Positions 1-10,417 of a stretch of DNA of 10,687 bases are shown here, one piece after another (the stretch's first letter is position 1; each line of letters starts with the position of its first letter). The position numbers were made by a program, and so were the translations under genes. The notes under the pieces are model-generated. The model searched no databases. It was given only the letters and a program-made list of their open reading frames with translations, and was not told where the DNA came from. This DNA is from Comamonas sp. (GTDB taxonomy: Bacteria; Pseudomonadota; Gammaproteobacteria; Burkholderiales; Burkholderiaceae_C): assembly GCA_019236485.1 (NCBI GenBank), contig JAFAIY010000200.1, forward strand, positions 1 to 10,687, in the 5' to 3' direction.

Positions 1-600
1 GAGGTCGAGGAGGAGATCGCGCGCATGAGCGAGGTGCTGCGCGGCGCGGGCGCCACGGCCATCACGGTCAGCGCCAGCGAGGAGGAGCGCCTACGTTTCT
101 GGAGCGGGCGCAAGAACGCCTTCCCCGCCAGCGGCCGCATCAGCCCCGACTATATGTGCATGGATTCGACGATTCCGCGCAAGCGCCTGGCCGACATACT
201 GCTGGCCATCCAGCAGATGGAAAAGAAGTACGGCTTGCGCTGCGCCAATGTCTTCCATGCGGGCGACGGCAATCTGCACCCGCTGATCCTGTTCGATGCC
301 AACGACGCCGACGAGCTGCATCGCTGCGAGCTGTTCGGCGCCGACATCCTCGAGACCAGTGTGGCCATGGGCGGCACGGTGACGGGCGAGCATGGCGTGG
401 GCGTGGAAAAGCTCAACTCCATGTGCACCCAGTTCAGCGCGGCCGAGAACCAGCAGATGTTCGCGCTCAAGGCGGCTTTCGATCCGCTGTCGCTGCTCAA
501 CCCCGGCAAGGTGATTCCCACGCTCAACCGCTGCGCCGAGTACGGCAAGATGCTGGTGCGCGGCGGCCAGATCGCCCACCCGGATCTGCCGCGCTTCTGA
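1..600 (+). CDS. glcD: FAD-linked oxidase, glycolate oxidase subunit GlcD-like (3' part only)
   Basis: The reading frame is open from base 1 (Glu-Val-Glu-Glu...) and ends at TGA 598-600, so this is the last 199 residues of a protein that begins upstream of the window. It carries the C-terminal FAD-oxidase signatures of the GlcD/D-lactate dehydrogenase family: W-x-G-R-K near the start of the visible part, the metal/substrate motif HAGDGNLHP, then GGTVTGEHGVG, and FDPxxLLNPGK close to the end. In the family, GlcD is the FAD subunit of the GlcDEF complex that oxidises glycolate to glyoxylate at the membrane. The next gene is convergent, so no glcE or glcF follows here as in the usual glcDEF order; they would have to be upstream or elsewhere. 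It could also be a lone 2-hydroxyacid dehydrogenase of the same family. Family assignment is firm; exact substrate is not. Confidence 0.9.
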   Translation, partial: EVEEEIARMSEVLRGAGATAITVSASEEERLRFWSGRKNAFPASGRISPDYMCMDSTIPRKRLADILLAIQQMEKKYGLRCANVFHAGDGNLHPLILFDANDADELHRCELFGADILETSVAMGGTVTGEHGVGVEKLNSMCTQFSAAENQQMFALKAAFDPLSLLNPGKVIPTLNRCAEYGKMLVRGGQIAHPDLPRF

Positions 601-631: not shown

Positions 632-1978
632 TCAGGCCAGGCTCAGACGGTCCACGATGCGGGCCATGGGCACCAGGATGCGGCGCATCTTGAAGCCGAA
701 CCACTGCGGGTTGGCCACGGTCTGCGGTTTTTCCAGCGGCAGCAACAGGTCCTGCCAGCGTTCGCTGGCCATCACCTGCGCCAGATGGCGCCCCAGCAGC
801 GGGCCCATGACATTGCCCCAGGTGCCCAGATTCATGAGCGCCGTCACCCCGTCCGCGACCTCGTAGATCTTGGCGTAGTCCTCGTGGTAGACCTGGGACG
901 AGCTCGAGGTATAGCCGGTCCAGTAGCTTTCCAGCTCGATGTTTAGCGCCCGGGTCTGCGGAAAAGTCTTGTGCAGATAGGACAGGAAATAGTCGAAATA
1001 CACGCTGGCCTCTTGCTCGCGTCCCGCATGCGGAATGGTTGCCGTGATCAGGCGGCGCTGTCCATCCACCACCATGGGATACAGCCCCGTGGGCACCTGG
1101 GTCAGCGCCGCGCGCGCGGGATTCAGGCCGTCCAGCAGCGACTGCGGCAGGGGTTTGGTCGCCAGCGCGCAGGCGACCAGAGGGTATTGGGTCCGCCCCA
1201 GCTCCGGGAAGAAAGAATTGCCCGCATGGGCATTGGTGCAGATCACCACCCGCTGCGCGCGCACGCTGCCGCGCGCCGTGGCCAGCCGCCACCTAGCGCC
1301 CTCGCGCCGGCAGTCCAGCACCGGGCTATCGCCGTAGACCTGGGCGCCCAGTTTCCGCGCCACGTCCACCATGCCGTTGGTGAACATAAAGGGGTTGACG
1401 CTGCCGCCTTCCCGCCAGTGCAGGCCATAGCCGTAGCGCGAGCTGCCCAGCAGCCTCTGCAACTCCTCGCGCCCCACCTCGGCCACCGCATAGCCGCGGC
1501 CGGCCCATTCCCTGGCCTTGGCCTGCAGCGCCGCGACGGGCCTGGCCGCAACCTCCACCATGCCGCCCCTATGGGCGTCGCCGTCTATGCCATGGCGATC
1601 GCAGATCTCGTAGACGATGTTGCGCTGCTGCATGAAGTATTCAAGAAAAGGCTGGCCGCCCCCGGGCCAGCTCTGGAGCACCTGCAGCTTGTCCAGAAAA
1701 GGCTGTACATGGCCGGCATTGCGGCCCGAGGCACCGTCCGCGGGCTGGCGCGCTTCAATCAAGGCCACGTCGATGCCCAGCTCCCGCAGATGCAAGGCCA
1801 GCGAACTGCCCGCCAGTCCCGCGCCGATGACGGCCACATCGGTTTCCACATCCTGTTCCAGGGCCGCATGGCCGGGCGCCGGTGCATGCAGGGCCCAGCC
1901 GCTGCAGGCTATGGGCACGGTGCCGGATTGATAAGCTTGGCGGCTGACGCCATTCGCCGGAAATTGACGCGCTTGCAA
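632..1978 (-). CDS. FAD-dependent oxidoreductase, DAO family (DadA/PuuB-like)
   Basis: Predicted 448-residue flavoprotein of the D-amino-acid oxidase fold. A dinucleotide-binding motif GAGLAG sits at residues 52-57 after a beta strand (DVAVI), followed by an acidic end of strand 2 (ALIEA) and a GASGRNAGH block at 82-90. The N-terminal stretch before the Rossmann motif and the GASGRN block resemble gamma-glutamylputrescine oxidase-like and glycine/D-amino-acid oxidases, which oxidise an amine carbon to an imine using FAD. A C-terminal TWGNVMGPLLG segment fits the usual FAD-closing region. No ATG lies early in the frame; the start is TTG at 1976-1978, chosen because of a strong ribosome binding site just upstream. 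The gene is divergent from nothing close and is preceded by operator copy 1, so it is probably a member of the local LuxR regulon. The true substrate is unknown; an amine or amino acid is the family-based guess. Confidence 0.85.
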   Translation of the reverse strand: MQARQFPANGVSRQAYQSGTVPIACSGWALHAPAPGHAALEQDVETDVAVIGAGLAGSSLALHLRELGIDVALIEARQPADGASGRNAGHVQPFLDKLQVLQSWPGGGQPFLEYFMQQRNIVYEICDRHGIDGDAHRGGMVEVAARPVAALQAKAREWAGRGYAVAEVGREELQRLLGSSRYGYGLHWREGGSVNPFMFTNGMVDVARKLGAQVYGDSPVLDCRREGARWRLATARGSVRAQRVVICTNAHAGNSFFPELGRTQYPLVACALATKPLPQSLLDGLNPARAALTQVPTGLYPMVVDGQRRLITATIPHAGREQEASVYFDYFLSYLHKTFPQTRALNIELESYWTGYTSSSSQVYHEDYAKIYEVADGVTALMNLGTWGNVMGPLLGRHLAQVMASERWQDLLLPLEKPQTVANPQWFGFKMRRILVPMARIVDRLSLA

Positions 1979-2021: not shown

Positions 2022-2065
2022 AGTCTAGAAAGGCCGGCGCCGGCGCTCTAGTACCAGGTGGCACT
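2022..2065 (-). promoter_or_regulatory. operator copy 1 and promoter of the FAD oxidoreductase gene
   Basis: The near-palindrome AGTACCAGGTGGCACT occupies 2050-2065 (7-bp arms, one mismatch). On the minus strand, 22 bases past it, is CTAG at 2028-2025, giving a -10-like hexamer TAGACT at 2027-2022. With the hexamer starting at -12, the operator centre falls at about -42.5 and the transcript would start near 2015, leaving a leader of about 37 nt before the TTG. No convincing -35 hexamer is present at 17-bp spacing, which suits an activator-dependent promoter. The site is seen in the sequence; its role and the start of transcription are inferred. Confidence 0.65.
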
Positions 2066-2069
2066 GCCA

Positions 2070-2093
2070 GCTAGCCGGCTAGCGGGCTAGCGC
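2070..2093. repeat. three tandem 8-bp GCTAGCNN repeats
   Basis: GCTAGCCG, GCTAGCGG and GCTAGCGC follow one another without gaps at 2070, 2078 and 2086. The array begins four bases beyond operator copy 1 and overlaps the stop codon of the LuxR-type regulator (2087-2089). GCTAGCCGGCTAGC within it is a perfect 14-bp palindrome. Its role is unknown; it could form a small hairpin at the 3' end of the regulator transcript, but there is no T-tract on the minus strand. Confidence 0.6.
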
Positions 2094-3340
2094 AGAAAGG
2101 ACAGGCTGCGCAGCATCACGCGCACCAGATCCGCCTGGCTGGAGATGGCCAGCTTGCCGTAGACCTTCTTGGAATAGTTGCGCGCCGCGCTCTCGCCGAT
2201 CTGCATCTTCTGCGCGGCCTCCGCAATGGTGTGGCCGCAGGCCAGCAGCAGCGACAGCGTGGCCTCCTGCCGGGTCAGGTCGAACAGGCTGCAGATGCGC
2301 TGGACCGAATGCGATTGCGCGGGCTGCAGCGCCTGCAGCGGCGTATGGATCTCCGACAGATAGACGATGGCGCAGGGTGTTTCCTGGCCCCGGTAATAGT
2401 GGCGCACGGGCGCCGACTGCACCAGGATGCCTAGCAAATGGTCCTCCACCTGTCCCATGCGCAGGATTTCCCCGTTCGCCTCTTCCTGTCCTTGCTCGCG
2501 CGCCAGCACCACCTTCTCTATCGCCTGCTCGAGCCGGCGCTGCACCGCCCGATCCTTGAGCCTGAGCCTGTGCTCCTGCACGCTCAGCCCCGGCACGCGC
2601 TGCACCAACTGGGTGGCGACGGGATTCATATGCAGCACCTGGCCCGCGCCGTTGAGCAGCACGCAGCCCAGGCCGAAATGGTCGAGCATGCTCTCGTACA
2701 CAAAGCGCTCGGTTTCCTGGCGCTGCAGGCGCGCAAACAGGCTGAGAGCGGTTTCCATATGCGGCACCAGGGCCTGCAGCAGCGCCATGTCGCCCGCACT
2801 GAACAAGGGCTGCTGCGCATCGCAGCGCACCATGTCCACCCAGCAGCGCATGCCCTGCGGCTCGGCCACGCACAAACGCATGCTGTCGGTGAAGCCCAGT
2901 TTCTGCGCAAAATGGGAGTGAGTCAGATGCACGGTCAGCCGCTCCACCTGGCCCGGCGCCATGCGGTCCAGGCGCATGGGGTCCAGGGCCATGAAGTTGC
3001 TGCGGTATTCCTCCTCCACGGCCTGCCAGTCTATGGGGTCGTCGGCGATGCCCGCCATCACATAGCTGTCGCATCCGGTCTGCTGCTCATGGTGCAGCGT
3101 GATGACCACATTTCGCGCCCCCAGCAGCCGGCGCAGGCCCTCGGCAAAACGCTGCCAGGGCAGAGCATCCTGGAGGCTCTGGTAGAGCAGGTGCAGCAGG
3201 TCGCCCGGGAGGGCAGACGCCGACGGCTCGCCCTGAGCCATTCCCGGCCACAGGCGCGACCAGTCGGTCTGCCTGCCCGGCGCGGGCAGGGAACTGTGGG
3301 CCGCAGAGCTTAAGGACGGGGAACAGATCTCGGTCAACAT
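2087..3340 (-). CDS. LuxR-type helix-turn-helix transcriptional regulator
   Basis: From the start chosen here the protein has 417 residues. Residues 355-417 form a LuxR/GerE-type HTH: LTRQEATLSLLLACG, then HTIAEAAQKMQIGES as the HTH pair, then VYGKLAISSQADLV, matching the family pattern LTxxE...G.s..eIA...is...V......yxKL. The long N-terminal part has no receiver-domain or autoinducer-domain signature I can recognise; it is probably a ligand-sensing (PAS/GAF-like) region. Start choice: the frame stays open to a GTG at 3403, but the extra 21 codons are rich in TTG with poor GC3, unlike the rest, and encode a Leu-rich stretch; ATG 3340 is where normal codon use begins. A later ATG at 3241 (384 residues) is possible; none has a clear Shine-Dalgarno site. 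It lies among three copies of one palindrome that has lux-box-like promoter geometry, so it is the natural candidate to bind them. The architecture is comparable to TeiR, the LuxR-type steroid-response activator of Comamonas testosteroni, but identity is not claimed. Confidence 0.85.
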   Translation of the reverse strand: MLTEICSPSLSSAAHSSLPAPGRQTDWSRLWPGMAQGEPSASALPGDLLHLLYQSLQDALPWQRFAEGLRRLLGARNVVITLHHEQQTGCDSYVMAGIADDPIDWQAVEEEYRSNFMALDPMRLDRMAPGQVERLTVHLTHSHFAQKLGFTDSMRLCVAEPQGMRCWVDMVRCDAQQPLFSAGDMALLQALVPHMETALSLFARLQRQETERFVYESMLDHFGLGCVLLNGAGQVLHMNPVATQLVQRVPGLSVQEHRLRLKDRAVQRRLEQAIEKVVLAREQGQEEANGEILRMGQVEDHLLGILVQSAPVRHYYRGQETPCAIVYLSEIHTPLQALQPAQSHSVQRICSLFDLTRQEATLSLLLACGHTIAEAAQKMQIGESAARNYSKKVYGKLAISSQADLVRVMLRSLSFLR

Positions 3341-3538
3341 AGCAATCAAAACCAATAGCAATCCAGGCAACAAACACGGCGCCTTCAAGCCAGAGAAATG
3401 CACCGCGCGCAGGATGTCAGCGCGGCCGCTGCACCCTCATCTCGCAGCTCTCTGCCAAGCCTAAGTCGTGCCGCAGCATAGGCCGCGGCCGCCGCAGCGC
3501 CTATCCGGACTTGTATGCACCCGCGGGTCCGCGCCGGC

Positions 3539-3582
3539 AGTACCAGGTGGGACTGGCGACCCATAGAAGCCCTGCCTAGCAT
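3539..3582 (+). promoter_or_regulatory. operator copy 2 and promoter of ridA
   Basis: AGTACCAGGTGGGACT at 3539-3554 is the 16-bp near-palindrome with one arm mismatch. CTAG follows 22 bases later (3576-3579), within a -10-like TAGCAT at 3577-3582, so the operator centre falls at about -42.5. The position expected for the -35 (TGGCGA) matches TTGACA at only three of six bases. Predicted transcription start is near 3589, which gives ridA a leader of about 138 nt. Because it stands between divergent genes, the site might also affect the regulator's own transcription. Confidence 0.65.
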
Positions 3583-3679
3583 CCGGCAGGTGACGAGTTT
3601 CTTGCGCCCCTGCCATGTCGCCCCGGAGGCCGATTGCCTGTGCCGCAAGAATCTTCATCGCCTCGATTTCCACCGTGCA

Positions 3680-3695
3680 CCTGCAATCGTGCAGG
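3680..3695 (+). other. small hairpin in the ridA leader
   Basis: CCTGCA at 3680-3685 and TGCAGG at 3690-3695 pair perfectly around the four-base loop ATCG. The stem ends about 30 bases before the ridA start codon. It could shape access to the weak ribosome binding site, but a 6-bp stem can arise by chance. Confidence 0.3.
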
Positions 3696-3726
3696 CGCTC
3701 CGATTCCCCTCTCTTCGTGAAAGCCT

Positions 3727-4149
3727 ATGGCAGCCAACACCCTCCGCCTGGAACACCTCAACCCCAAGGAACTGCTGAGCTTTGACGGGCTCAGCCAAGT
3801 GGTACGCGTCCAGCGCGGCACCACCGTCTATCTCGCCGGCCAGGCGCCGTTCAACCCAAGCTTCGAACTGCTGGGCGGCGACGACTTCAAGGCTCAGGCC
3901 ACGGCCACGCTGAAGAATGTTGCCGCCGCCGTCAACGCCGCGGGCGGCAGTCCCGCCGATGTGGTCAGCAGCACGGTCTACATCAAGGGACTCAGCGGCG
4001 CGCGCAGCAGCCAGTTCTTCGAGGCCATGGCCCAGGCCCTGGACGGCCTGCCCTTCCCCGCCCATGCGTTCAGCATCATTGGCGTGGCCGAGCTGGGTGC
4101 ACCCGAACAGCTGATCGAGATTTCCGCCATCGCCGTCATCCAGGCCTAG
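3727..4149 (+). CDS. RidA/YjgF/UK114-family protein with the key Arg replaced
   Basis: This 140-residue protein has the full length and pattern of the Rid family: LSFDGLSQVVRV near the start, VYLAGQAP at 34-41, DDFKAQATATLKNVAAAV at 52-69, GGSPADVVSSTVYI at 73-86, and a C-terminal EISAIAV at 131-137. Family members are small trimeric cytosolic proteins; canonical RidA hydrolyses reactive 2-aminoacrylate and other imines made by PLP enzymes or flavin oxidases. The segment FPAHAF puts His113 where canonical RidA (FPARS...) has the Arg that binds the substrate carboxylate, so this is a divergent Rid subgroup and may act on a neutral or different imine/enamine, or bind a ligand. The ATG start has only a weak GAAAG upstream. 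The gene stands alone, between operator copy 2 and an intrinsic terminator. Its pairing with a flavin amine-oxidase-like gene under the same operator fits imine handling; that link is inferred. Confidence 0.87.
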   Translation: MAANTLRLEHLNPKELLSFDGLSQVVRVQRGTTVYLAGQAPFNPSFELLGGDDFKAQATATLKNVAAAVNAAGGSPADVVSSTVYIKGLSGARSSQFFEAMAQALDGLPFPAHAFSIIGVAELGAPEQLIEISAIAVIQA

Positions 4150-4177
4150 GGCCTGGCGGCGCCCTGCCGCCCAGACT

Positions 4178-4203
4178 GCCGCATGCCCCGCCGGGCATGC
4201 GGC
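4178..4203. repeat. perfect 11-bp inverted repeat after ridA
   Basis: GCCGCATGCCC at 4178-4188 and GGGCATGCGGC at 4193-4203 are exact reverse complements around a CGCC loop. The structure lies between the ridA stop codon and the intrinsic terminator and has no T-tract of its own. It may stabilise the 3' end of the ridA transcript or assist termination. Confidence 0.6.
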
Positions 4204-4221
4204 CAACCGTGTCTCTGCTTG

Positions 4222-4254
4222 AAGCCAGTCCTTGCCCAAGGCTGGCTTTTTTTT
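4222..4254 (+). terminator. rho-independent terminator of ridA
   Basis: AAGCCAG (4222-4228) pairs with CTGGCTT (4242-4248), and CCTT (4230-4233) pairs with AAGG (4238-4241) inside, around a GCCC loop with a single bulged T at 4229. Eight T residues follow directly at 4247-4254. This is a textbook intrinsic terminator and separates ridA from the DUF1329 operon, which therefore needs its own promoter. Confidence 0.9.
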
Positions 4255-4285
4255 GCGCCGCGGCCGCACACGCCCGGCCGCCGTC

Positions 4286-4330
4286 GGTACCACCTGGTAC
4301 TAGCTGCGCACAGGCCTCCATTCCTAGCAT
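4286..4330 (+). promoter_or_regulatory. operator copy 3 and promoter of the DUF1329-DUF1302 operon
   Basis: GGTACCACCTGGTACT at 4286-4301 is the same palindrome, carrying the shared 12-mer on the minus strand, with only the outermost base pair mismatched. The -10-like TAGCAT at 4325-4330 is preceded by CTAG starting 23 bases past the operator, one base further than in copies 1 and 2, placing the centre at about -43.5. There is no recognisable -35. The transcript would start near 4337, with a leader of about 90 nt. The site lies just after the ridA terminator, as expected for a new transcription unit. Confidence 0.65.
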
Positions 4331-4427: not shown

Positions 4428-5807
4428 ATGAACCAACTGATGCAGAAAGCCCCGCTGGCCCTGGCCGCGGGCCTGCTGGCTGCGGGATTGGCACAGGCCA
4501 AGGTGCCGGCCAGCGAAGCCGAGCGCCTGGGCAAGGACCTGACCTGCACGGGCGCCATCAAGGCCGGCAACAAGGAGGGCACGATTCCCGAATTCACCGG
4601 CAAATGGCTGGGCGCGCCCCCTGGCGTAGCCTTCCAGCCTTCCAGCGGCAAGCACCCCGTGGACATCTATGCCAACGAGAAGCCGCTGTTCCAGATCACT
4701 GCGGACAATATGGGCCAGTATCTGGACAAGCTGAGCCCCGGCCAGCAGTCCATGCTGAAAAAATATGCGAAGACCTACCGCATCCCCGTCTACCAGGGGC
4801 ATCGCGACTTCCGCTTTTCCGACGAAGTCTGCGCGGTGAGCAAGAAGAATGCGCTGGATGCCGAAGTCGCGGAAAACGGGCTCTCCATCAAGGGCCGCAT
4901 GGGAGCCGTCAACTTCCCCATTCCCAAGAACGGGCTGGAGCTGATCTGGAACAACCTGCTGAACACCCGCGAATACACCGCACATGTGATCCGTGACAAC
5001 GCCAACGTGCTGTCCAACGGCACCATCAACTACGGCCGCACCGACAACACCGACCTGGACCGCTACAACGTCCCGGAGCTGCTGGGCAAGCCCGTCGACG
5101 GTCCCATGGCCTACTCGTTTGCCAAATACCTGCTGCCCGAGCGCGACCGCGGCGGTGTCACGGTAGCGGTCGAGCCCACCAACTTCGGCGACAACAAGCG
5201 CCTGACCTGGGCCTATGAACCGGGCACGCGCCGCGTGCGCCAGATCCCGGAGTTCGGCTTTGACCAGCCCATGGCCGGCACCGGTGGCCGCATGACCATC
5301 GACTCGGACCGTCTGTTCAACGGCTCGCCCGAGCGCTACAACTGGAAGCTGGTCGGCAGAAAGGAAATGTTCATACCGGCCAATGCCTACCGGGTCCACC
5401 AGCCCAGCGTGAAGTACGCCAGCCTGCTGACTCCCGAGCACCCCAACCCCGACTACCTGCGCTATGAGCTGCGCCGCGTCTGGGTCACGGAAGGCACGCT
5501 GAAGGAAGGCTATCGCCATCTGTTCGGCAAGCGCGTCATGTTCCTCGACGAGGACACCGGCCAGGCCGTGGCCACCGATATCTACGATGCCCGCGGCGAA
5601 CTCTGGCAACACGCTTTCATCAACTACTACTACGCGTTTGACGTCAAGGCCTGGTACTCGGGAACCTCCTTCTATCACGACCTCACCGCGGGCTCCTACC
5701 TGGCCTACAACCTGTTCCAGGAACGGGAATCGGGTCCGGTCCTGAACAAGGGCGACTTGAACGAATCCATGTTCACCCCTGCAGCCGCACGCAGCGCCGG
5801 CAAATAA
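4428..5807 (+). CDS. DUF1329 family exported protein
   Basis: The protein is 459 residues long from the ATG at 4428, which follows a strong GGAGGAG ribosome binding site (4416-4422); frames reading further upstream are not credible. Residues 1-24 look like a Sec signal peptide (Lys7, then an Ala/Leu-rich core ending AGLAQA), with cleavage predicted before Lys25-Val-Pro. The mature part shows features typical of DUF1329 proteins: an early GKDLTCTGAIKAGNKEGTIP stretch, PVYQGHRDFR, WAYEPGTRRVRQIPEFGFD, and an aromatic-rich C-terminal third. Members are periplasmic or outer-membrane-associated proteins almost always encoded next to DUF1302 proteins, often in clusters for degrading hydrophobic compounds; their biochemical role is not settled. 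The next gene begins 25 bp later and is DUF1302, so the two are one operon, probably driven from operator copy 3. Confidence 0.88.
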   Translation: MNQLMQKAPLALAAGLLAAGLAQAKVPASEAERLGKDLTCTGAIKAGNKEGTIPEFTGKWLGAPPGVAFQPSSGKHPVDIYANEKPLFQITADNMGQYLDKLSPGQQSMLKKYAKTYRIPVYQGHRDFRFSDEVCAVSKKNALDAEVAENGLSIKGRMGAVNFPIPKNGLELIWNNLLNTREYTAHVIRDNANVLSNGTINYGRTDNTDLDRYNVPELLGKPVDGPMAYSFAKYLLPERDRGGVTVAVEPTNFGDNKRLTWAYEPGTRRVRQIPEFGFDQPMAGTGGRMTIDSDRLFNGSPERYNWKLVGRKEMFIPANAYRVHQPSVKYASLLTPEHPNPDYLRYELRRVWVTEGTLKEGYRHLFGKRVMFLDEDTGQAVATDIYDARGELWQHAFINYYYAFDVKAWYSGTSFYHDLTAGSYLAYNLFQERESGPVLNKGDLNESMFTPAAARSAGK

Positions 5808-5832
5808 GAACGATCCGCTGGAAGCCCATCCC

Positions 5833-7398
5833 ATGAAGCACCCATCCATCCAGACCTCGCTGGCCTCGGCCGCACTTCTGGTCCTGTCCCTGCCTGCCGC
5901 TCAGGCCGGCGAGACCGTCGATCTCGGCGACGGCCTGAAATTCGACTGGAGCCTCGGCACCACCTACGCGCTCGGGGTACGCACCAAAAGCCCCAACCCC
6001 TTGCTGGCCAGCGATGCCACCAATTTCACCGGCAACGACGGCAACAACAATTTCAAGAAGGGCGCGCTCACGACCAATCGTGTCTCGGCGCTGTTCGAAA
6101 GCAAGCTGGCCAAGGGCGATACCGGCATGGTTCTGACCGGATCGACCTTCTACGATCAGGTCTACCATGGCCGCACCGACTACAACGGCAGCACCATCCC
6201 CAACACCCCGCCGCCCTACGACCGCTTCACCCCGACGGCCAGGCATATGCAGGGCGGCTATTCGCGCCTGCTCGACACCTATGCCTTCACCACGGTGAAT
6301 CTGGGGGCCGAAAAAAAGCTGGATCTGCGCGTCGGCCGCCAGGTCGTGAACTGGGGCGAAGCGACCTTCTTCGCCAATATCTCCGGCGCACAGGGCCCGT
6401 TTGACGGCGCCAAGAGCGATATCCCCGGCACCGAGGTGAAGGAGGCCATATTGCCCGAGGACCAGATCTCGGCCGCGCTGCAGCTGTCCCCCGACTTCAC
6501 GCTGCTGGGCCACTGGCAGTTCGGCTTCCACGAAACCATTCTGCCGGCCGTGGGCTCGTTCCAGAGCAACGACGATCTGCTGGGCCCGGGTGGCAGCTGC
6601 CTGGGCGTCTACGACAAGGCCGGCACCTGCCACGGCCTGCCGCGGACCCAGGACCAGCGGCCCAAGAAAACCGGCCAATGGGGCATAGGTGGGCGCTACC
6701 GCCTGAGCAGCGAAACCGAGGTCGGCCTGTACTACCTGAATTACAACGACCGCTCACCGGCCCTGATCTTCGCGCCGGACTTCAGCGGCTATAGCGTGCG
6801 CTACTTCGACAATGTCAAGATGCTGGCCGGCACGGTCAGCACCACCTTCGGTAAGGTCTCGGCCTACGGCGAACTCAGCTACCGCCAGGGTGCTCCGGTG
6901 ATGGTCGGCATGCGCGATGACCCCGAGATGCCGGCCTATGTGCGCGGCAATGTCACCCAGCTCAACGTCGGCGGCTTCTACAACGTAGGCCGCACGCCGC
7001 TGGCTCCCGACATGCAGATCCTGGCCGAAATCTCCGGAGTCAAGGTCAACAGCATCAGCGGAGGCTATGGCTTCAACGAGCTGTTCTTCAAGACCCGCAA
7101 CAGCCTGGCCTTCGCCGGCACCTGGCTGCTGGGCTACCCGGGCATCGCCGAGGGCTGGGATCTGAGCGTGCCCATCAGCTACTCGCACCAGCTGCGCGGC
7201 CGTTCGCTGGTCGGCAGCTTCGGCGGCGGCCAGGGCGACCACCGCTACAGCGTGGGCGCCACCTTCACCAAGAACAACAATCTGTCGTTCTCGGTGGCCT
7301 ATGTGGGCTATCTGGGCGGCGCCTCGCTGGACGCCAAGAAGGACCGCTCCATGGTGGATCGCGACCAGTTGACCTTCACCGCGAAATACATGTTCTAA
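5833..7398 (+). CDS. DUF1302 family outer-membrane beta-barrel-like protein
   Basis: A 521-residue protein. Residues 1-25 form a signal peptide (MKHPS..., hydrophobic core, ending PAAQA) with cleavage before Gly26-Glu-Thr. The mature chain has alternating polar/hydrophobic strands rich in Gly, Tyr and Asn (for example LDLRVGRQVVNWGEATFF), as in outer-membrane barrels, and ends LTFTAKYMF, with the C-terminal Phe that marks proteins handled by the BAM machinery. DUF1302 members partner with DUF1329 proteins and have been suggested to act in passage or sensing of hydrophobic substrates; function is not proven. A GGAAG ribosome binding site lies 8 bp before the ATG. Length is near the lower side of what I expect for the family, with no sign of truncation. 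It is translationally close to the DUF1329 gene (25-bp gap). Confidence 0.87.
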   Translation: MKHPSIQTSLASAALLVLSLPAAQAGETVDLGDGLKFDWSLGTTYALGVRTKSPNPLLASDATNFTGNDGNNNFKKGALTTNRVSALFESKLAKGDTGMVLTGSTFYDQVYHGRTDYNGSTIPNTPPPYDRFTPTARHMQGGYSRLLDTYAFTTVNLGAEKKLDLRVGRQVVNWGEATFFANISGAQGPFDGAKSDIPGTEVKEAILPEDQISAALQLSPDFTLLGHWQFGFHETILPAVGSFQSNDDLLGPGGSCLGVYDKAGTCHGLPRTQDQRPKKTGQWGIGGRYRLSSETEVGLYYLNYNDRSPALIFAPDFSGYSVRYFDNVKMLAGTVSTTFGKVSAYGELSYRQGAPVMVGMRDDPEMPAYVRGNVTQLNVGGFYNVGRTPLAPDMQILAEISGVKVNSISGGYGFNELFFKTRNSLAFAGTWLLGYPGIAEGWDLSVPISYSHQLRGRSLVGSFGGGQGDHRYSVGATFTKNNNLSFSVAYVGYLGGASLDAKKDRSMVDRDQLTFTAKYMF

Positions 7399-7404
7399 AG
7401 CGAC

Positions 7405-7446
7405 GGCCGTCGAAGCCCCGGCTTCGGCGGTCTGCCCACGCTTTTT
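7405..7446 (+). terminator. hairpin with delayed T-tract between DUF1302 and GMC genes
   Basis: A stem of about 12 bp with two G-T pairs forms between 7405-7416 and 7421-7432, closed by CCCG; its core is CGAAGC/GCTTCG. Five T residues come only at 7442-7446, about nine bases after the stem, so this is not an ideal intrinsic terminator. It may partly terminate or protect the DUF1329-DUF1302 message, reducing expression of the GMC and MFS genes. The rest of the 176-bp gap (7399-7574) holds no operator copy and no clear promoter. Confidence 0.5.
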
Positions 7447-7574
7447 CAGCCAACCAGCTCATCGCACCAAGAGCCTCCGGCCATTGGGTGCGCGGGCTGT
7501 TCCAGAAATCCTTCTGCTGATCCGCTTCTTGAGCCGCGGCAAACCGGATGGAGCAGCCCAGGAAGAAATTTGTC

Positions 7575-9185
7575 ATGTCAGATGTCCATCAATTCGACTT
7601 CATCATCGTCGGCGCCGGCTCGGCCGGCTGCGTGCTGGCCAATCGCCTGTCCGCCGACTCTCGCCACCGGGTGCTTCTGATCGAAGCCGGCAGCCGGGAC
7701 AAAAGCCCGCTGATTCATGTGCCCGGCGGTTTTCTGGCCCTGCTACACAGCGGCAAGTTCAGCTGGAACTATCAGACGGCGCCGCAGAAACACCTGGAAA
7801 ACCGCGTGCTCCACGATGCCCGCGGCAAGGTGCTCGGGGGCAGCAGCTCGATCAACGGCATGTGCTACAGCCGCGGCGCGGCCGAGATCCTCAACGGCTG
7901 GGCAGCGGCCGGCAACCAGGGCTGGTCGTACCGGGAAATGCTGCCCTACTACCGCCGCGCCGAAGGCAATCTGCATGGCGCCGACGCCTATCACGGCGGC
8001 GACGGCCCTCTGCGCGTCACCCGCATGGGACTCGACAACCCCGCGACCCGCGCCTGGATCAAGGCCGCCCAGGATGCGGGCTACCCCTATAACGACGACC
8101 ACAACGGCGCGGTCGCGGAAGGCTTCGGCCCCGGCGAACACACGATCTACAAGGGACGGCGCATGAGCACCGCCGTCAGCTATCTGCGGCCGGCACGCAA
8201 GCGCGCCAATCTGCAGGTGCTCACCGAAGCACATGTGACCCGCATCCTGTTCAAGGGCCGGCGCGCCATAGGCGTCGAATATCGCCGCGACGGCGAGTTG
8301 CAGCGCGCCTACGCGCGCAGCGAGGTGATCAGCAGCGCCGGCACTTTCCAGTCTGCACAACTGCTGATGCTGTCCGGCATAGGCGACGCCGATCAGTTGC
8401 AGAACATCGGCATCACCCCGGTGGTGGACCTCAAGGGCGTGGGCGCCAATCTGCACGACCATATCGGCACCCAGGTCGCGATGAGCTGCCCGCAGCCGGT
8501 CACCTACTACAAATACTTCAGCAGCCCGCTGGCCATGGCCCAGGCCGGACTGAGCTATGCGCTGGCGCGCAAAGGCCCGCTGGGCAGCAACTCCATCGAC
8601 GCGGTTGCCTATCTGCGCTCGGGCACTCCGGGGCATGAGGAGCTGGACCTCAAGTTCTATTTCATTCCGGCCCTGCTGGTGGCCGATGAGGCAGAGCGCA
8701 AAGCGCATGGCATCACGAATCTCATCATCCTCACCCGCCCCGAAAGCCGCGGCCGGCTGAGCCTGCGCTCGGCCGACCCCATGGCCCAACCCGTGATCGA
8801 CGCCAACTACCTGAGCGACCCGCGCGATGTCGAGGCGCTGCGCCGCGGCATACGCATCTCGCGCCGGATTCTCGCCGCCGAGGCTTATCAAGCCTATCGC
8901 GGCCGCGAGGTATTGCCGCGCACCGAGATCGACACCGACGAGGCCCTAGACGCTTTTCTGCGCCAGACCTGCGAGGTCAATTACGAGGCCGTGGGCAGCT
9001 GCCGCATGGGGCATGACGAACTGGCCGTGGTCAGCGACCGGCTCGAGGTCCATGGAACCAGCAATCTGCGCGTGGTCGACGGCTCGGTGATGCCGCGCAT
9101 CACCACCGGCGACCCCAACGCCACCATCATCGCGATTGCGGAAAAAGCCGCGGACCTGATTCTGTCCAAGGCGGCTGCCTGCTGA
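7575..9185 (+). CDS. GMC-family FAD oxidoreductase with altered catalytic pair
   Basis: A 536-residue protein with the layout of choline/alcohol dehydrogenase-type GMC flavoenzymes: FAD-binding GAGSAG at 13-18 with the acidic LLIEAG at 34-39, GMC signature 1 around GKVLGGSSSINGM (84-96), GMC signature 2 around AGTFQSAQLLMLSGIG (255-270), and the C-terminal GSCRMG and LRVVDGSVMPRITTGDPN blocks. The family oxidises alcohols to aldehydes or acids with FAD. Here the near-invariant active-site His of the HPxGTCRMG block is Glu471 (YEAVGSCRMG), and the first Asn of the usual GNxN is Asp513 (GDPN), so catalysis may differ. Start: ATG 7575 has AGGAAG upstream at suitable spacing; an in-frame ATG at 7548 would add nine residues and lacks a good site. 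No signal peptide, so cytoplasmic or peripheral to the membrane. The MFS gene follows after 29 bp, suggesting co-transcription. Confidence 0.88.
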   Translation: MSDVHQFDFIIVGAGSAGCVLANRLSADSRHRVLLIEAGSRDKSPLIHVPGGFLALLHSGKFSWNYQTAPQKHLENRVLHDARGKVLGGSSSINGMCYSRGAAEILNGWAAAGNQGWSYREMLPYYRRAEGNLHGADAYHGGDGPLRVTRMGLDNPATRAWIKAAQDAGYPYNDDHNGAVAEGFGPGEHTIYKGRRMSTAVSYLRPARKRANLQVLTEAHVTRILFKGRRAIGVEYRRDGELQRAYARSEVISSAGTFQSAQLLMLSGIGDADQLQNIGITPVVDLKGVGANLHDHIGTQVAMSCPQPVTYYKYFSSPLAMAQAGLSYALARKGPLGSNSIDAVAYLRSGTPGHEELDLKFYFIPALLVADEAERKAHGITNLIILTRPESRGRLSLRSADPMAQPVIDANYLSDPRDVEALRRGIRISRRILAAEAYQAYRGREVLPRTEIDTDEALDAFLRQTCEVNYEAVGSCRMGHDELAVVSDRLEVHGTSNLRVVDGSVMPRITTGDPNATIIAIAEKAADLILSKAAAC

Positions 9186-9214: not shown

Positions 9215-10417
9215 ATGAGCCATTCCGACAATTTCGACGCGCGCCGCGCCTGGGCCCTGGTGCTGGGGCTGGGCGTGGTGATGAGCATCAGCTTCGGCCT
9301 GACGCTCAATGCCTTCAGCATCTTCACCCTGCCCATCATGGAGGCCTTCCGCTGCAACCATGAGCAGGCCGCGCGCCTGGCCACGGTGTTCATGCTGACC
9401 ATGACCATGGCCATGCCGGCCGCGGGCTGGCTGCTGGACCGCGTGCCGCCGCGGCCGGTGATGGTGTGCAGCGGCCTGATCACCGGCCTCGCCTATCTGG
9501 GCGCTGCGCAAAGCGGCAGCCTGGAGATGTTCACCCTGGCCATCGCCTGCTGCGGCATAGGGGTGGGCGGCTCGACCTATGTGCCGGCCTTCATCCTCGT
9601 CTCGCACTGGTTTCCCGTGCCGCGCCAGGGGCTGGCCTTCGGCGTGCTGCTGGCCGTGGTCGGCGCCGGCGGCACCGTGCTGCCCATGGTGCTGACCCAG
9701 ATGCTCGCGCGCATGGGCCTGCGCGCCACCATGGAGGCCGGAGCGGTGCTGCTCTTCGTGGTCTGCCTTCCCCTGCTGTGGTGGCTGGTGCGCCTGCCGG
9801 CCCACGCCGCAGCAGCGGCCAAGACGCAGGCGCAGGAGCCAGGCATGGGCGCCGTGCTGCGCCTGCCGCAGTACTGGCTGTGGATTGCGATGTTTCTGCT
9901 CATCACCTTCAGCGGACTCAGCGTGCTGATGGGGCTGGTTCCCTATCTGGTGTCCATAGGCTATTCCGCCGCCGAGGCCGCCGTCGTCTATGGCGCGATC
10001 GCCGCTGCCACCATAGGCGGCAGCCTGCTGTTTGGCGCGCTCAGCACGCGCCAGGGAGTCAGGCGCACGCTGTCGCTGGGCGTCGTCATCGGCAGCATAG
10101 GCGTGCTCGCACTGCTGCAGGCCACGGAGACGGCCTGGGGGATGACGGCGCTGATAGGCTTTGTCCTGGGCTGGGGCATGACCTTCAATCTGGTCAACCA
10201 GATGTCGCCCACGCTGCTGATGGAGTTTGCAGGCCGGCAGAATTTCGGCAGCCTGCTAGGCGTCGGCAATCTGATCTCCGGCCTGGGCGCCGCGATGGGG
10301 CCGACCTTGTTCGGCTATCTGGTGGACAGCAGCCAGGGCTATGGGCTGCCGCTGTCGCTGTGCGCGGCGCTGATGGCTCTGGCCCTGCTGCCTCTGGCCT
10401 TGCTGCGCCGCGCCTAG
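9215..10417 (+). CDS. major facilitator superfamily transporter
   Basis: A 400-residue, strongly hydrophobic protein with about twelve predicted membrane helices in two six-helix halves, joined by a hydrophilic Ala/Lys/Gln loop at about 194-212. The motif-A-like segment GWLLDRVPPRPVMV (71-84) lies between helices 2 and 3, and a weaker counterpart GALSTRQGVRRTL (274-286) lies at the same place in the second half, as is usual for MFS. Helix 4 region GIGVGGSTYVPAF resembles monocarboxylate/oxalate-formate type carriers. It probably moves an organic acid or a breakdown intermediate across the inner membrane by proton coupling; the substrate cannot be told. It follows the GMC gene by 29 bp with no terminator between, so it likely serves the same pathway. 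No strong ribosome binding site is seen before the ATG. Confidence 0.87.
   Translation: MSHSDNFDARRAWALVLGLGVVMSISFGLTLNAFSIFTLPIMEAFRCNHEQAARLATVFMLTMTMAMPAAGWLLDRVPPRPVMVCSGLITGLAYLGAAQSGSLEMFTLAIACCGIGVGGSTYVPAFILVSHWFPVPRQGLAFGVLLAVVGAGGTVLPMVLTQMLARMGLRATMEAGAVLLFVVCLPLLWWLVRLPAHAAAAAKTQAQEPGMGAVLRLPQYWLWIAMFLLITFSGLSVLMGLVPYLVSIGYSAAEAAVVYGAIAAATIGGSLLFGALSTRQGVRRTLSLGVVIGSIGVLALLQATETAWGMTALIGFVLGWGMTFNLVNQMSPTLLMEFAGRQNFGSLLGVGNLISGLGAAMGPTLFGYLVDSSQGYGLPLSLCAALMALALLPLALLRRA

Follow-up and report, generated by a model that had tools for sequence, protein, structure and literature searches.

A 10,687-base stretch of Comamonas sp. DNA (contig JAFAIY010000200.1, 65.5% GC; hereafter the window) carries three copies of the 16-bp palindrome AGTACCA-NN-TGGTACT (AGTACCANNTGGTACT), which is very probably the own on-switch of a LuxR-type regulator encoded among them. 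We hold with high confidence that it serves as the activator operator of this LuxR/GerE-type protein (2087-3340), placed near -42.5 or -43.5 in the style of a lux box. The initial annotation of the window had proposed a LuxR-type regulon with an operator at the activator position, and the related sequences compared here support that proposal through the linkage of the sites to one regulator clade, their fixed spacing to a -10-like hexamer, and the different palindrome of another clade, whose recognition helix is also different. The regulator and its predicted promoter elements, with distances in nucleotides (nt), are as follows.

2087..3340, minus strand: LuxR/GerE-type regulator, 417 amino acids (PF00196, E 0.0013)
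2050..2065, minus strand: operator copy 1, AGTGCCACCTGGTACT toward the FAD oxidoreductase gene, one mismatch
2022..2027, minus strand: -10-like TAGACT, 22 nt past operator 1
3539..3554, plus strand: operator copy 2, AGTACCAGGTGGGACT, one mismatch
3577..3582, plus strand: -10-like TAGCAT, 22 nt past operator 2
4286..4301, plus strand: operator copy 3, GGTACCACCTGGTACT, one mismatch
4325..4330, plus strand: -10-like TAGCAT, 23 nt past operator 3

At up to three mismatches the palindrome matches the window at exactly these three places, each with one mismatch, as had been annotated. Shuffled windows (n = 200) gave a mean of 0.07 matches and a maximum of 2, and three were reached in 0/200. The chance expectation for a given 12-mer was computed as 0.0013, in agreement with the earlier estimate of about 0.001. 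All three copies are intergenic when set against the gene coordinates, and the -10-like hexamers lie at the distances first described (22, 22 and 23 nt); if they occupy -12 to -7, operator centres at -42.5, -42.5 and -43.5 and transcription starts near 2015, 3589 and 4337 follow, again as proposed. The remark that no good -35 is present also holds, the best match to TTGACA at a spacing of 15-19 being 3, 3 and 2 of 6. The source genome is a metagenome-assembled genome (4.08 Mb, 672 contigs, 87% complete), and in the whole draft sites with ≤1 mismatch occur at the three window positions and nowhere else. At ≤2 mismatches the palindrome is found at 9 places, against 22 for a reversed control pattern, so the six two-mismatch sites are background; they were considered as extra targets and dropped, as none has TANNNT at 22 or 23 nt.

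A protein search, in which the 7,998 candidates sharing most words were scored, returned 73 homologues. An alignment of 40 of these was scanned against one-genome-per-species contigs and yielded 179 relatives, of which the best 80 were kept; a scan of genomes with the single protein had found no relative. Viral contigs gave no relative, and plasmids gave none at E 1e-20 (query P0034). Among the best 80, 23 are close homologues (34-53% identity), hosted by Giesbergeria, Thauera terpenica, T. butanivorans, Aromatoleum toluclasticum, a Comamonadaceae bacterium, Pseudomonas, Stutzerimonas, Halopseudomonas and several bins. The palindrome is present in 23/23 of their loci, the best copy having 0 mismatches in 12, 1 in 10 and 2 in 1. 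When 121 rows were scored with the family profile, 28 exceeded 368 bits and the other 93 scored ≤259. The upper rows represent 24 distinct loci, the window included, and a site with ≤2 mismatches lies within 3 kb of the regulator in all 24 (the re-fetched row L130 shows three mismatches, its short stretch stopping before the exact site present in L026). Such a site was found in 0/93 of the lower-scoring rows (83 loci), whose best sites have 3 mismatches in 3 rows, 4 in 48 and 5 in 42. A motif-free search for gapped 5-base inverted repeats placed GTACC-N4-GGTAC first in the upper group (18/24 loci, 0 in shuffles).

A site with ≤1 mismatch occurs in 22 of the 23 regulator-bearing genomes, and inside the LuxR locus lie 13/13 exact sites and 23/35 sites with ≤1 mismatch (reversed control, 22). 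The initial annotation had named genome-wide occurrence unrelated to LuxR-type genes as evidence that would count against it; with every exact site in these 23 genomes in-locus, this was not observed. One of the 12 off-locus sites, in T. terpenica, lies 1.3 kb before DUF1329/DUF1302 and has TANNNT at 23 nt. In a set of 16 off-locus sites from the own and other genomes, which excludes three off-locus sites of the 23-genome scan, TANNNT was found at 22 or 23 nt in 0/16, in either direction. In one Pseudomonas group, 4 of 18 genomes encode a full homologue (at E under 1e-150), each with an exact site; of the 14 others, 1 has an exact site, away from that genome's paralogue. Among 398 Pseudomonadaceae genomes, in which the regulator search scored at most four candidates per genome, an exact site occurs in 14/23 with the regulator (E 1e-100) versus 10/375 without (Fisher p 5.6e-14, kinship ignored). 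One Pseudomonas-group genome yielded only about half of the regulator, profile positions 10-195 (L132, G573:C11:779031-779588); an exact palindrome is absent from it.

A test set was assembled from ten regulator genes in genomes new to the analysis, with up to ~6 kb on each side, drawn from 29 Thauera-group genomes, of which 3 have the regulator, and from the Pseudomonadaceae search. The question was fixed before the stretches were read, although a parallel genome scan had already shown the five exact sites. The site was present in 10/10 (0 mismatches in 5, 1 in 2, 2 in 3), followed at 23 nt by TANNNT in 10/10, toward the FAD oxidoreductase (9) or the MFS gene (1), and in both directions in L186, L189 and L193. 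Of 150 genomes of the same family two besides the own match at E 1e-20 (28-29% identity), and of 399 genomes of the same order the own genome alone matches at E 1e-60. The module is therefore rare and patchy.

For an analysis of promoter geometry, sites with ≤2 mismatches were read toward the nearest suitable gene, giving 31 promoters. TANNNT lies 22 or 23 nt past the palindrome in 29/31 (10 at 22 nt, 19 at 23 nt), while the remaining 28 offsets in the range 10-39 hold two in total; the background at offsets 22/23 is 280 of 92,506 sampled positions (0.3%). The hexamer is TAGCAT in 12 cases, TAGGAT in 9 and TACGAT in 3, with five more forms once apiece. The annotated operator centres (-42.5, -42.5 and -43.5) stand for the window, with the amendment that across loci 23 nt is commoner than 22, which makes -43.5 at least as typical as -42.5. 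Among these sites, chosen at ≤2 mismatches, the promoter-side half TGGTACT is invariant at six of its seven positions and has T at the fourth in 26/31, and the far half varies at positions 1, 4 and 7. Two bases past the palindrome, G is present in 29/31.

In the opposite direction, TA is found at 23 nt in 9/31 promoters, as TANNNT in six of these nine; seven of them belong to Pseudomonas loci in which the MFS gene is divergent. Divergent promoters on one palindrome, with a TAG-type -10 at 23 nt on both sides, were seen in L022, L024, L026, L028, L029 and L033 and in L186:4562, L189:8561 and L193:4051. These pairs point toward the oxidoreductase and MFS genes; in L193, DUF1329 replaces MFS. Directly past the palindrome, before oxidoreductase genes, a conserved stretch was noticed, often GGAGCG or AGAGCG, so that recognition may extend further on the promoter side.

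The lux box is a 20-bp inverted repeat that takes the place of the -35 element, with its centre near -42.5, and LuxR activates from there. The present system resembles Vibrio fischeri LuxR and its lux box in having a GerE-type C-terminal helix-turn-helix (HTH) domain, an inverted repeat near -42.5 replacing the -35, and proposed activation; if the hexamer is the -10, the 29/31 promoters with TANNNT at 22 or 23 nt share the lux-box geometry. It differs in that the site is 16 bp long and of another sequence, the targets are catabolic and no autoinducer-binding domain was found. 'Lux-box-like' therefore describes geometry, not quorum sensing. The Pfam scan of the window at E 0.001 gave no family match for the regulator, whose score against PF00196 (E 0.0013, 18.7 bits) is below the gathering score of 23.5. 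The GerE HTH (PF00196) is found in 40/40 alignment members when E up to 0.1 is allowed (best 7e-8), consistent with a C-terminal HTH. The 24 families listed for these 40 members at that threshold include no autoinducer-binding domain, as an acyl-homoserine lactone receptor would have, and no receiver domain of the NarL/FixJ kind; PAS_4 matches 4/40 weakly. The N-terminal part has no convincing match among solved chains, and solved relatives, response regulators included, match mainly over the HTH: the family profile matches DevR (1zlj, 1zlk, 3c3w; E 1e-5 to 7e-5) and, weakly, GerE (1fse, E 0.02) in that region. DevR/DosR is a receiver-domain response regulator, unlike the present family, for which no receiver family is listed. 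The regulator gene (2087-3340) has a GTG at 3403 as an alternative start.

A second palindrome accompanies the distant branch of the family, the remaining 57 of the best 80 loci (mostly sphingomonads, with some other alphaproteobacteria and bins; best segments 24-31% identical). Here CTCCC-N4-GGGAG is the top inverted repeat (53/57 loci; 0.2 in shuffles), a site with ≤2 mismatches to ACTCCCANNTGGGAGT occurs in 52/57, and 54/57 have one with ≤2 mismatches to CCTCCCANNTGGGAGG where the regulator gene starts. CCTCCCANNTGGGAGG is of equal length to the window palindrome (16 bp) and has the core CCA-NN-TGG in common with it. A site with ≤1 mismatch was found in 20/20 sphingomonad-type genomes (37 places genome-wide; control 15). 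At E 1e-10 relatives of the window's oxidoreductase, RidA, DUF1329, DUF1302, GMC and MFS proteins are all absent from the distant-branch loci; a relative of its FAD-linked oxidase is present in two. A -10 spacing for the sphingomonad-type sites was considered and is not claimed, since TA is frequent at 21-22 nt on the divergent side (19/53) and TANNNT is not (1/53).

In a tree of the regulators, the 24 loci share a branch (98/99), 40 of the second kind share another (100/100), and a third holds the Pseudomonas paralogues (33 rows, 100/99), with two subgroups of which one is weak (79/39); the tree program warns of long branches, and groups are labelled by branch, not by site. The recognition helix reads AARNYSKKIYAKM or nearly so in the first branch, TARNYSKKIYAKT in the second, and T[A/V]RAHLR in the paralogues, near which neither palindrome was found. 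The palindrome thus follows the helix and not the neighbouring genes, which is the strongest argument that the LuxR-type protein reads it. We lean slightly toward a reading in which one regulator family uses at least two DNA codes with a CCA-NN-TGG core, a few helix changes (for example, in window numbering, A385 to T and L/M397 to T) having switched the outer arms. In beta- and gammaproteobacteria, one branch would read AGTACCA and control an uptake set with the FAD oxidoreductase and DUF1302; the other would read CCTCCCA and stands opposite the sulfate-activation genes cysDN in sphingomonads (four loci opened). A separate 7-2-7 palindrome search for an operator of the Pseudomonas paralogues gave REP-type (repetitive extragenic palindromic) repeats and nothing consistent.

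In the four distant-branch loci opened (L036, L041, L056 and L087, ~5000-8000), the LuxR-type homologue stands opposite sulfate-activation genes (cysD, cysN/C), with CCTCCCANNTGGGAGG or a close form between them. NCBIfam confirmed CysD in L036 and L087 and CysN/C in L036, the rest being assigned by reading. The homologue of these alphaproteobacterial loci is a candidate sulfur regulator.

In the mechanism that we propose for the window, a dimer of the regulator would probably bind both AGTACCA half-sites directly, with its promoter-side edge at about -35, where the -35 element is missing. The bound dimer would recruit sigma-70 polymerase to the TAGCAT-type -10 and supply the contact that the poor -35 lacks, like LuxR at the lux box. 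Presumably in response to a ligand, it would switch on three units: the FAD oxidoreductase gene (minus strand), ridA (plus) and DUF1329-DUF1302-GMC-MFS (plus), the last four genes perhaps as a single operon. The regulator could instead bind the palindrome as a repressor, its dimer blocking polymerase over the -35 region until released by an inducer. The site does overlap the -35 position, and in the sphingomonad type the site immediately precedes the gene of the regulator itself, an arrangement common to many self-repressing regulators. However, unaided polymerase should work poorly at the window's three promoters, with their -35 matches of 3, 3 and 2 of 6, and the one-base precision of spacing to the -10 (29/31) fits polymerase contact better than mere blocking, so we consider repression improbable. 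Still less likely is that a different DNA-binding protein reads the palindrome. The same partner genes accompany the regulator, and the neighbourhood could in that way carry the motif, but site and regulator stay together though the gene order is reshuffled, the distant branch keeps a same-core palindrome by the regulator without those partners, and the Pseudomonas paralogues, with another helix, have neither palindrome. That the palindrome is a repeat element, a terminator or a chance match of no regulatory role seems barely credible: REP-like palindromes do occur near the paralogues in Pseudomonas genomes, but only three copies with ≤1 mismatch exist in 4.08 Mb, all in the window, and both place and -10 spacing are conserved in other genomes.

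Several observations weigh against the palindrome as a lux-box-like activator operator. Locus L023 has CACAAT, not TANNNT, at 22 or 23 nt in its two promoters, and its genome lacks any site with ≤1 mismatch. The sphingomonad-type sites do not show the TANNNT spacing (0 at 22, 0 at 23 and 1 at 21 of 53). Between the extra T. terpenica site and DUF1329 lies an oppositely directed gene, TetR-like by reading. The orientation of the 31 promoters was set after their alignment had been viewed, the loci of the test set are related to those used before, and all counts are inflated by relatedness.

The other genes of the window are listed below, the predicted targets included. The TTG start of the FAD oxidoreductase gene is preceded by AGGGAGG and the ATG of the DUF1329 gene by GGAGGAG.

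1-600, plus strand: FAD-linked oxidase, end only (Pfam)
632..1978, minus strand: DAO-family FAD oxidoreductase, first predicted target (PF01266, E 7e-51)
3727..4149, plus strand: RidA-family protein, second predicted target (PF01042, E 1e-19)
4428..5807, plus strand: DUF1329 protein, opening the third predicted target (PF07044, E 6e-109)
5833..7398, plus strand: DUF1302 protein (PF06980, E 5e-117)
7575..9185, plus strand: GMC oxidoreductase, choline-dehydrogenase-like (PF00732/PF05199; NF002550, 612 bits, cut-off 605)
9215..10417, plus strand: MFS transporter (PF07690, E 1e-39)

Across the 23 close-homologue loci, some of which are cut by contig ends together with their genes, the partners are the FAD oxidoreductase (23), MFS (18), DUF1329 (15), DUF1302 (15), RidA (4) and GMC (2). 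Gene order differs among these loci, and the order LuxR-site-oxidoreductase recurs in many relatives. In several Pseudomonas loci, genes for acyl-CoA dehydrogenase, thiolase and enoyl-CoA hydratase adjoin the module. Two DUF1302/DUF1329 pairs flank the regulator in L034 and L043 (Pseudomonas sp. MYb185, Halopseudomonas formosensis). Only a remote resemblance links the oxidoreductase to pipecolate oxidase AmaA, at 173 bits against a cut-off of 600, and to glycine oxidase (E 5e-9). Rid proteins act in imine hydrolysis. The FAD oxidoreductase, the Rid protein of some loci, the transporter and the DUF1302/DUF1329 pair together suggest oxidation of a hydrophobic amino compound, and the gene set probably serves the uptake and oxidation of a hydrophobic amine or amino-acid-like substrate.

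Two known systems invite comparison. In Comamonas testosteroni, TeiR/TesR is a LuxR-type activator of testosterone degradation with a function described as positive (PMC6895838). Compared by that description only, the present system likewise pairs a LuxR-type regulator with a catabolic gene set in a Comamonas; unlike in TeiR/TesR, its partner genes are not a steroid cluster. In AmeABCD of Castellaniella defragrans, as described in PMC6394551, AmeA is a DUF1302 and AmeB a DUF1329 protein, with an RND transporter, in monoterpene metabolism. There too a DUF1302/DUF1329 pair stands beside hydrophobic-compound catabolism, whereas FAD and GMC oxidoreductases and an MFS transporter are found here in contrast to the RND transporter described there. 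The word LuxR is absent from the main text of PMC6394551. Literature searches returned no paper in the library covered that joins LuxR with DUF1302, alone or with DUF1329, and nothing combining LuxR, palindrome, FAD-dependent oxidoreductase and RidA, or Sphingobium, cysD, LuxR and sulfate. The initial annotation knew of no published operator of such sequence; the operator strings were found in no paper searched, and among the matches listed for the half-site strings none was on the subject by title. We file the operator and the regulon as new, the kind of regulator being already known.

An uncharacterised LuxR-type family gains by this analysis a predicted operator, promoter geometry and target set, testable in Pseudomonas and Thauera strains in culture. 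One predicted inducible oxidation module now includes the DUF1302/DUF1329 pair, itself poorly understood, and at some loci a Rid protein, which should aid the search for a substrate. With its two branches and their related palindromes, the regulator family is a clean system for studying specificity change in LuxR-type recognition helices and, if the two-code reading is true, a natural experiment in operator choice by such helices.

At window positions 2069-2092, three CTAG-bearing repeats (gctagc, in steps of ~8 bases) end at the stop codon of the regulator gene. CTAG is scarce in the window as a whole, with 14 occurrences against 34 expected from base composition.

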